Of a stretch of DNA of 64,000 nucleotides, positions 56,813 through 61,284 are shown piece after piece. This DNA comes from an uncultured Parasphingopyxis sp. (GTDB lineage Bacteria > Pseudomonadota > Alphaproteobacteria > Sphingomonadales > Sphingomonadaceae): positions 124,001 to 188,000 of the forward strand of contig CAMYKP010000009.1 of the NCBI GenBank assembly GCA_947259005.1, in the 5' to 3' direction. How positions within the stretch are numbered: position 1 is the stretch's first letter; each line of letters opens with the position of its first letter. The notes below the pieces were generated by a model. It was not told where the DNA came from, made no database searches, and saw only the letters and a program-made list of their open reading frames with translations. The position numbers and the translations under genes were made by a program.

Positions 56813-57367
56813 TCATATCCGCTTGGCGGCGGCAATGGCTAAGCGGCAACCGAGCCGGATTGCGCCAGACAGGAACGGATAGCCGGGCGCCTGTTCCGCG
56901 CCCTCCGCTAATGCGGTTTCACGATGTTCGACCTCTTCGGCCTGAAATTCGGCGATCATGGCGCTGAGCTCGGGGTCGGAATCGCCCAGTTCTTCAAGCT
57001 GTTCGCTATAGTGGAGGTCGATCTCGGTTTCGATCGCGGCTGTGCAAGCCATGGCAGCTTCGGGCCCAAGCAGTGCGGTGGCCGCGCCAAGGGCGAAGCC
57101 GGCACGATCCCATAATGGCTGGAGCAGGGTAGGGCGGACGCCGCGTTCAACGGCCAGCGCATCGAATCGCTCGCAATGGCGGTGTTCCTGCTCCGCCATC
57201 CGGGAGATTGAGCGCGCCACGGGATTGCGATCGCCCAAAATGGCGAGCTGGCCGGCATAGATTCGTGTAGCCCCATATTCACCGGCCTGATCGACCCGAA
57301 TCATCGAATCGACATCGGCCCGGGTATCGCCGGGGAGGGTCAGCGCGTCGTCTTGCGTGTCAGCCAT
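56813..57367 (-). CDS. coq7: demethoxyubiquinone hydroxylase (COQ7 family)
   Basis: IRVDQAGEYGATRIYAGQLAILG...MAEQEHRHCERFDAL...EEVEHRETALAEGAEQAPGYPFLSGAIRLGCRLAIAAAKRI; di-iron ExxH motifs. Confidence 0.93.
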   Translation of the reverse strand: MADTQDDALTLPGDTRADVDSMIRVDQAGEYGATRIYAGQLAILGDRNPVARSISRMAEQEHRHCERFDALAVERGVRPTLLQPLWDRAGFALGAATALLGPEAAMACTAAIETEIDLHYSEQLEELGDSDPELSAMIAEFQAEEVEHRETALAEGAEQAPGYPFLSGAIRLGCRLAIAAAKRI

Positions 57368-59247: not shown

Positions 59248-60447
59248 TTAACCGCGGCTTACGAGGGAGGAAATATCAACCGGTTCGCCGCTGCGGCGCA
59301 GTTCGACGGTGACTGTCGGCTGGTCATCGCCGGTTCTGCCGATCGGCGCCCCCTGTTGCACCACCTGGCCGACCTGAACGCTGACCGAGGCAAGATCGGT
59401 GATCAGGGTTGTCCATCCGCCGCTATGATCGATAATCACGATCTGGCCAAAGCCCCGAAAATCGCCGGCATAGCTGACCCTTCCGGCAGTCGGCGCAATC
59501 ACCTGTGCGCTCGGTTGAGTGGCGATTGTCAGGCCGCGTGAACGCACGCCTGCTTCCGATACTTCGCCTAGGCCTGCCACAACTTCGCCCATTACGGGCA
59601 GGCGATAGGGCGGGCGCCGGTTGCTGTCATTGCCAGTCCGTCTCTGCGTCGGTGCGCTGGCCTCTCCTGGTTGTGCGGGGCGCAGCCGGGGGCCGGGCAG
59701 GGTGATAAGATCCTGTCGAACTCCGGCCTGACGGTCGAGTTCAGCCATGAGTGTGCGAATATCGCGCGCGTCTTCGCCCAGCGCCATGACCCGGTCGGTT
59801 TCGAGCATTGCCGAACGTTCCAGCTGTTCGGCCCGCTGGCGCGATCCCCGTTCGAGCGCGGCGAGCTGGACGCGGCGGGTTTCAAGATCTTCCTGTCGTT
59901 GAGTGAGCAGGGCAACAGCCCGGTCGGCCTGGAGACGCAGGTTGGATCCGCGCACAACCTCAGCCCGCAAACTCGCTGTGCGTTCGCGAACGATGGGCAG
60001 GGTAGTCGAAAAGAGGGAACGGATATGAACGAGATCGCTGATGCTCCCCTGATGAACGAGCGCCAGTGCAGGTGGCCGGCGCGCCATGGTTTGCAAGGCC
60101 GCGGTCAGCCCGATGATCGTTCCCTGCCGTTCGGCCAGTCTTGCCCGTTGCTCCGCGCGCAATTGCTCGATGAGGCGGATACGGCTTTGTGCGGCGGTGA
60201 GGTCGGCCTCAGCCGCCTGAACCTGCGCTGCCGCAGCGGCCTCGTCGGCGGCGGCGCGCTCGGCGCGGCTTTGAGCGTTTTCGGCCTGCTGCTCAAACTG
60301 CGTGGCCCGCTGCTGGGCAATGGTGCGTTGGCGCAGGGCTTCTTCCAGTGCTTCGGCTTCGCTCGCGCCGCCGCTCGGCTGGGCAAGCGCGAATGGCGCG
60401 AGGATTGCCGAGAACAGCGTGATCATGGCGAGGAGGCGCATTATCAT
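59248..60447 (-). CDS. envC: murein hydrolase activator EnvC-like (coiled coil + M23/LytM domain)
   Basis: Signal peptide, long coiled coil, C-terminal degenerate LytM (GRVSYAGDFRGFGQIVIIDHSGGWTTLITDLASVSVQVGQVVQQGAPIGRTGDDQPTVTVELRRSGEPVDISSLVSR). Confidence 0.92.
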   Translation of the reverse strand: MIMRLLAMITLFSAILAPFALAQPSGGASEAEALEEALRQRTIAQQRATQFEQQAENAQSRAERAAADEAAAAAQVQAAEADLTAAQSRIRLIEQLRAEQRARLAERQGTIIGLTAALQTMARRPPALALVHQGSISDLVHIRSLFSTTLPIVRERTASLRAEVVRGSNLRLQADRAVALLTQRQEDLETRRVQLAALERGSRQRAEQLERSAMLETDRVMALGEDARDIRTLMAELDRQAGVRQDLITLPGPRLRPAQPGEASAPTQRRTGNDSNRRPPYRLPVMGEVVAGLGEVSEAGVRSRGLTIATQPSAQVIAPTAGRVSYAGDFRGFGQIVIIDHSGGWTTLITDLASVSVQVGQVVQQGAPIGRTGDDQPTVTVELRRSGEPVDISSLVSRG

Positions 60448-60451
60448 CCGG

Positions 60452-60880
60452 CTATCCTTCGCGATGATAGGGGTGATTGGCAAGGATCGAACTGGCCCGC
60501 CAAAGCTGTTCCGCGAGCATTGCCCGGGCCATCAGATGTGGCCAGGTGGCCTTGCCGAAGGCGATGGAGAGGTCCGCGCTGGCCCGTTCCTCTGTTGTCA
60601 GGCCGTCGGCAGCGCCAATCAGGAATCGGATTTCGCGGATGCCTTGGTCCTGCCAGTCTCCGATCTGCCGGGCGAGCTGGACCGAGCCAAGCTGTTTGCC
60701 GGATTCGTCCAGAGTTACGATTTTGGTTGCCGCTGGAAGGGACGGCATCTTGCCGCCTGTGTCGGGAAGCTCGGTCAGGCGTACGGGCCAGCCGATGCGC
60801 TGGACATAACGTTCGACGAGCTCGGCCTCTGGTCCGCGGCCGATTTTCCCGCGGGCGATAATGTGGAGCGAAAGGCTCAG
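60452..60880 (-). CDS. rlmH: 23S rRNA (pseudouridine-1915-N3)-methyltransferase RlmH, apparent CTG start
   Basis: Frame extends upstream of the ORF-track Met: (CTG)SLSLHIIARGKIGRGPEAELVERYVQRIGWPVRLTELPDTGGKMPSLP...LIGAADGL...LMARAMLAEQLWRASSILANHPYHREG; in-frame TAG immediately precedes the CTG. Confidence 0.9.
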   Translation of the reverse strand: MSLSLHIIARGKIGRGPEAELVERYVQRIGWPVRLTELPDTGGKMPSLPAATKIVTLDESGKQLGSVQLARQIGDWQDQGIREIRFLIGAADGLTTEERASADLSIAFGKATWPHLMARAMLAEQLWRASSILANHPYHREG

Positions 60881-61284
60881 CTATCGTCCTCTGCGGGGCT
60901 GTTTTCGCCGTCTTCCTGCTCGCCAAACCCCCACATGCGCTCCAGATTGTAAAAGCTGCGGACTTCGGGGCGAAACAGGTGGACGATCACATCGCCGGCA
61001 TCGAGCAGCACCCAGTCGGCCGTTGGCAGGCCTTCGATCCGCGTCGGGATGCCGAATGCAGCTTTCATGGACTCAGCCAGCTTCTCGGCAATCGCGGCAA
61101 CATGGCGCGTCGACCGGCCGCTGGCGATAACCATATAATCGCCAATAGACGATTTCCCGGCGAGCGGGATCGAGGTCACTTCCTGTGCCTGATCGTCCTC
61201 AAGGGCCTGTAAAATGTGCTGGTGAAGGTCTTCGGCCGTATAGGCCTCACTATTCGGTAGCGTCGCAACTGATGAAGCGGGCAA
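60877..61284 (-). CDS. rsfS: ribosome silencing factor
   Basis: IGDYMVIASGRSTRHVAAIAEKLAESMKAAFGIPTRIEGLPTADWVLLDAGDVIVHLFRPEVRSFYNLERMWG. Confidence 0.96.
   Translation of the reverse strand: MPASSVATLPNSEAYTAEDLHQHILQALEDDQAQEVTSIPLAGKSSIGDYMVIASGRSTRHVAAIAEKLAESMKAAFGIPTRIEGLPTADWVLLDAGDVIVHLFRPEVRSFYNLERMWGFGEQEDGENSPAEDDS

Follow-up and report, generated by a model that had tools for sequence, protein, structure and literature searches.

The rsfS-rlmH junction

The stretch of Parasphingopyxis DNA that we analysed (the window; 64,000 nt) contains on its minus strand the gene for RlmH, the 23S rRNA pseudouridine-1915 N3-methyltransferase of the SPOUT class, directly downstream of rsfS. 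RlmH was assigned from a match to PF02590 (107 bits, E 1.2e-30, cut-off 27); the NCBIfam RlmH equivalog models also match the window protein, but under their own cut-offs. The upstream gene was assigned as rsfS with TIGR00090 (112 bits vs a cut-off of 56.9). The features of the junction are as follows.

60452-60880, minus strand: rlmH, 142 codons plus a TAG stop when read from CTG (open frame and Pfam PF02590)
60878-60880, minus strand: putative start codon of rlmH, a CTG shared by all nine congeners with the same arrangement
60877-60879, minus strand: TGA stop codon of rsfS, overlapping the CTG as CTGA (the stop is offset by +1 in eight genomes and by -5 in genome G009)
60881-60883, minus strand: in-frame TAG abutting the CTG on its 5' side (sequence; seen in six of nine congeners)
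60887-60892, minus strand: AGAGGA, Shine-Dalgarno-like, neither conserved nor above chance
60746-60748, minus strand: internal ATG at codon 45, not conserved; the start for ORF callers that accept only ATG, GTG and TTG
60877-61284, minus strand: rsfS (ribosome silencing factor), the upstream gene, with a TTG start (TTG in eight of eight genomes compared; TIGR00090)

The original prediction placed the start of rlmH at a CTG within a CTGA overlap with the rsfS stop, and its coordinates for the TAG (60883-60881), the CTG (60880-60878) and the internal ATG (60748) are all correct on re-reading. The rlmH frame on the minus strand reads, from 60883 down, TAG followed by CTG AGC CTT TCG CTC CAC ATT ATC GCC CGC GGG AAA, and the rsfS frame at the same junction reads GAC GAT AGC TGA, which puts the TGA at 60879-60877 and confirms the overlap. 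The stop-to-stop frame of rlmH spans 60880 to 60452 and ends in TAG (60454-60452); because a TAG lies in frame directly 5' of the CTG, any upstream start is ruled out in the window. The first ATG, GTG or TTG in the frame is the ATG at codon 45, which would give a product of 98 aa. The ORF-track start at 60748 thus costs RlmH 44 residues, as had been predicted, and the expectation that automatic callers would truncate the protein holds for callers restricted to ATG, GTG and TTG.

An AlphaFold model of RlmH (30-sequence alignment, pLDDT 84.8; E4-10 H17-28 E33-38 E52-62 ... H115-133) has the strand-helix order of the knotted domain, with residues 4-10 forming b1, residues 17-28 forming a1 and residues 33-38 forming b2. 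The sheet order of E. coli RlmH is b2-b1-b4-b3-b5, such that b1 is internal (PMC5430550), and on the predicted structure a start at M45 would delete b1-a1-b2 of the fold. At the other end of the protein H136 P137 Y138 H139 R140 E141 G142 are invariant in 30 sequences; this C-terminal tail (HPYHRE) provides catalytic residues (PMC5430550).

Several other features of the neighbourhood are worth recording. The TTG start of rsfS (61284, minus strand) is preceded by AGGAG in six of the congeners compared, nadD (61929, minus strand) has TTG as its first start, and three successive genes of the operon are without ATG starts. Opposite rlmH and its neighbours lie antisense ORFs of 396 aa (59671-60861, plus strand) and 216 aa (60302-60952, plus strand), which are probably by-products of GC-rich coding sequence.

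Conservation of the junction within and outside the genus

Ten Parasphingopyxis genomes, the window genome included, were searchable. The original prediction had proposed a comparison of the rlmH start in close relatives, and this comparison revealed the CTGA junction, together with an (M)SLxxH N-terminus, in nine of the ten, including the isolates P. lamellibrachiae and P. marina. The closest named loci to that of the window belong to P. lamellibrachiae (91% identity), a Parasphingopyxis MAG (85%) and P. marina (81%). Codon 1 is CTG in all nine genomes, codon 2 is Ser in all nine (AGC in eight, AGT in one) and codon 3 is Leu in all nine, encoded synonymously by CTT in five and CTG in four; codons 2 and 3 lie past the rsfS stop and so are free of its constraint except for the A of TGA. 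The CTG is fixed in the genus across divergences that leave rlmH third positions, on average, 55% identical. The rsfS TGA overlaps the CTG as CTGA with the same geometry in eight of the nine. In the other genome (G009, locus L009 on G009:C77) the hexamer AGCTGA occurs in tandem, giving two in-frame CTGA motifs two codons apart, so that rsfS ends two codons earlier, at the first CTGA, with the second one still in frame.

Because six of the nine genomes have the TAG immediately before the CTG, the N-terminus of RlmH must fall in codons 1-5, and in six genomes the stretch from the in-frame stop to the conserved N-terminus is strictly devoid of ATG, GTG and TTG. In G004, G007 and G009 the rlmH frame extends upstream into rsfS with no intervening stop, and a GTG is listed there for G004 and G009. 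We note that the rsfS frame of G007 (L008, G007:C13:12027-15449) opens with the N-terminal part of NadD and runs into the C-terminus of RsfS; this joined frame, found in a 66%-complete genome, reflects a deletion or a misassembly. Downstream of the CTG, the nine genomes reach their first canonical in-frame codon at index 44, 54, 37, 25, 32, 21, 37, 103 and 28 (counted from the CTG), which places it at codon 22 to 104, depending on the species.

To place rlmH within its genome, 187 gene-like ORFs of the 227-kb window contig were compared with a 400-kb stretch of P. lamellibrachiae. Among these ORFs it is rlmH that carries the longest conserved coding stretch ahead of any canonical start, 44 codons in the window genome and 54 in P. 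lamellibrachiae. Changes in that stretch fall 5/3/22 at codon positions 1/2/3, which shows these codons to be evolving as coding sequence. The test is blind to any CTG start that has an ATG within the next few codons. Stop-start overlaps of the ATGA, GTGA and TTGA types are common on the window contig. Four further CTGA overlaps on the contig were considered as CTG starts; each has a nearby in-frame ATG (for example at 57367), so no CTG start is needed there. Outside the window, a 377-codon frame (G000:C9:63553-64681) has its first canonical start at codon 43 and aligns to P. lamellibrachiae upstream of that codon with mixed substitutions (5/4/10).

Outside the genus the start of rlmH is ordinary. 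At 75 loci of other family members the codon three positions ahead of the conserved His is canonical in every case (ATG in 45, TTG in 19, GTG in 11), and this start aligns with codon 3 of Parasphingopyxis rlmH; in other alphaproteobacterial families all 24 readable rlmH N-termini have ATG, GTG or TTG. Across 401 family genomes a motif search located the CTG-type rlmH start in this genus only; two further matches to the motif, in G173 and G297 (TGAGTCTCTGCGTCCACATCC), look unrelated as judged from their sequence. The tenth genome of the genus (G006) has a GTG two codons further in. The end of rsfS and beginning of rlmH read CTGAGCGCCGGTGCGCGTGCAC in G006 vs CTGAGCCTTTCGCTCCAC in the window, and this 4-base difference puts CTGA in the rlmH frame and removes the GTG. 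It is plausible from these sequences, and we infer, that a small deletion eliminated the previous start, so that CTG was the sole initiator remaining.

Initiation signals and competing explanations

The Shine-Dalgarno sequence claimed for rlmH stood up in part. AGAGGA is present with a 6-nt spacer, but its predicted anti-Shine-Dalgarno pairing (-6.8 kcal/mol vs a shuffled mean of -5.8 kcal/mol) is equalled or bettered by 29% of shuffles and the motif is not conserved; in none of the nine genomes does a Shine-Dalgarno signal upstream of rlmH exceed that of shuffled sequence. The initiator tRNA of the genus (G000:C3:173337-173358 and relatives) carries A29-U41 in its anticodon stem instead of the usual G29-C41, and we considered this tRNA as a cause of loosened start selection. 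All matches in 52 family genera carry A29-U41, and a family-wide feature is not specific to the CTG case given the ordinary rlmH starts outside the genus.

The window genome is a 2.45-Mb draft of 84% estimated completeness, with the window on contig 9, and a base-calling or assembly error might have turned an ATG, GTG or TTG into CTG. The relatives already refute this reading, the probability of which is close to nil: the same CTG recurs in nine genomes that were assembled separately, of which G001 and G005 are single-contig and two are named isolates, which also excludes the A/C sequencing error at the start codon raised in the original prediction. Production of the 98-residue protein alone, from an rlmH that has decayed or been shortened, has in its favour that the M45 product is the longest with an ATG, GTG or TTG start in the rlmH frame. 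Codon 45, however, is ATG in the window genome only (ATG, GTC, GTC, ATT, GTG, ACG, CTG, ATA and CCG across the nine), a start at the first canonical codon of G004 would yield just 39 residues, and the codons upstream evolve as coding. Since the Met is not conserved and a product begun there would lack the first two strands and the helix between them, initiation at 60748 is excluded in practice.

Two further explanations keep the N-terminus and dispense with the CTG. Initiation at codon 3 (60874-60872, CTT in the window) would match the position of the start codon in other family members, and residues 1-3 fall outside b1 in the predicted structure; yet a start signal is not kept at this codon, given its split between CTT and CTG, CTT is absent from the start codons of table 11, and Ser2 and Leu3 are conserved despite lying past the rsfS stop. 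We regard this alternative as improbable. Still less probable is -1 frameshifting at the end of rsfS, which would yield an RsfS-RlmH fusion and make a start codon unnecessary. At the overlap rlmH is indeed read in frame -1 with respect to rsfS, but GAT AGC TGA contains no slippery heptamer, P-site re-pairing from AGC to TAG would be poor, the junction differs in G007, G009 and G004, and rlmH has a start codon of its own in 75 of 75 relatives.

Probable initiation at CTG and its implications

The reading that fits all nine genomes is the one originally predicted, namely initiation at the CTG of the CTGA overlap. The frame offers no canonical start that could serve, it shows coding character from codon 2-3 onwards, and the genus has kept the overlap; on this comparative evidence rlmH almost certainly starts at CTG in nine related Parasphingopyxis species. 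It is very probable that rlmH is translated from this codon with formyl-Met through rsfS termination-reinitiation on the overlapping CUG. Specifically, ribosomes that finish rsfS at the TGA would reinitiate at CUGA in place of AUGA, supplied by termination-reinitiation and not by de novo binding, and fMet-tRNA would decode CUG at 60880-60878 to give the product MSLSLHIIARGK. Consistent with such a mechanism, rsfS and rlmH are co-directed and overlap at stop and start, a feature used to recognise coupled pairs. In E. coli, initiation complexes formed on CUG have lower stability than their AUG, GUG or UUG counterparts (PMC11497404), from which a low yield of RlmH would be expected; the level may be low but sufficient, and a modifying enzyme may need little.

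Conservation of the CTG is weak as proof of selection, because the TG is also set by the rsfS stop, leaving the C alone to carry independent information, and an invariant C at the third position is not very rare (4/70 conserved rsfS codons). A C-to-T change would give the better start TTG and would be silent for RsfS in all nine genomes, where its last codon is AGC, GGC or GTC; none of the nine took it. That selection keeps the CTG as a deliberately weak, IF3-sensitive start, tying RlmH output to RsfS termination and initiation fidelity, is a possibility that we consider rather unlikely.

The statement that CTG initiation is unusual was fair, with the qualification that CTG starts are documented elsewhere: they account for 0.7% of Caulobacter CDSs by Ribo-seq (PMC4117421). 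Caulobacter crescentus is likewise an alphaproteobacterium with CTG starts in a minority of genes, but its cases were mapped by Ribo-seq, whereas the Parasphingopyxis rlmH start is supported by comparison, across a genus. Across 36 genome groups, switches to CUG were found for 2 of 61,358 AUG, 1 of 5,080 GUG and 1 of 2,468 UUG starts (PMC5622118). The 4-base NTGA overlap with a co-directed upstream gene resembles the ATGA overlaps that use termination-reinitiation (PMC6728339), except that CTG replaces ATG; in that study strict coupling was seen in 13 of 14 overlapping gene pairs tested, and the words CTG, GTGA and TTGA are absent from its text. Chromosomal genes with a weak but conserved start codon are also known: infC, ccpN and cvfC1 in Staphylococcus (PMC13009471) and sigR in Streptomyces, which has a GTC start (PMC5472188). 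The Staphylococcus genes combine AUA or AUU with extended Shine-Dalgarno motifs, whereas at rlmH the Shine-Dalgarno sequence is not conserved and rsfS overlaps. CTG starts are thus a known rarity, of which the rlmH case is new and unusually well conserved, being fixed across the genus.

For annotation, callers restricted to ATG, GTG and TTG would cut RlmH short at a codon that has no meaning as a start and that changes with nearly every species. In this conserved housekeeping gene comparative evidence alone forces a CTG start, genus-wide and without a conserved Shine-Dalgarno sequence. Were the weak-start reading true, RlmH would be a ribosome-modifying enzyme under feedback from the state of the ribosome. 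The rsfS-rlmH pair is a clean test case for whether bacteria become less strict about the start codon where stop and start overlap.
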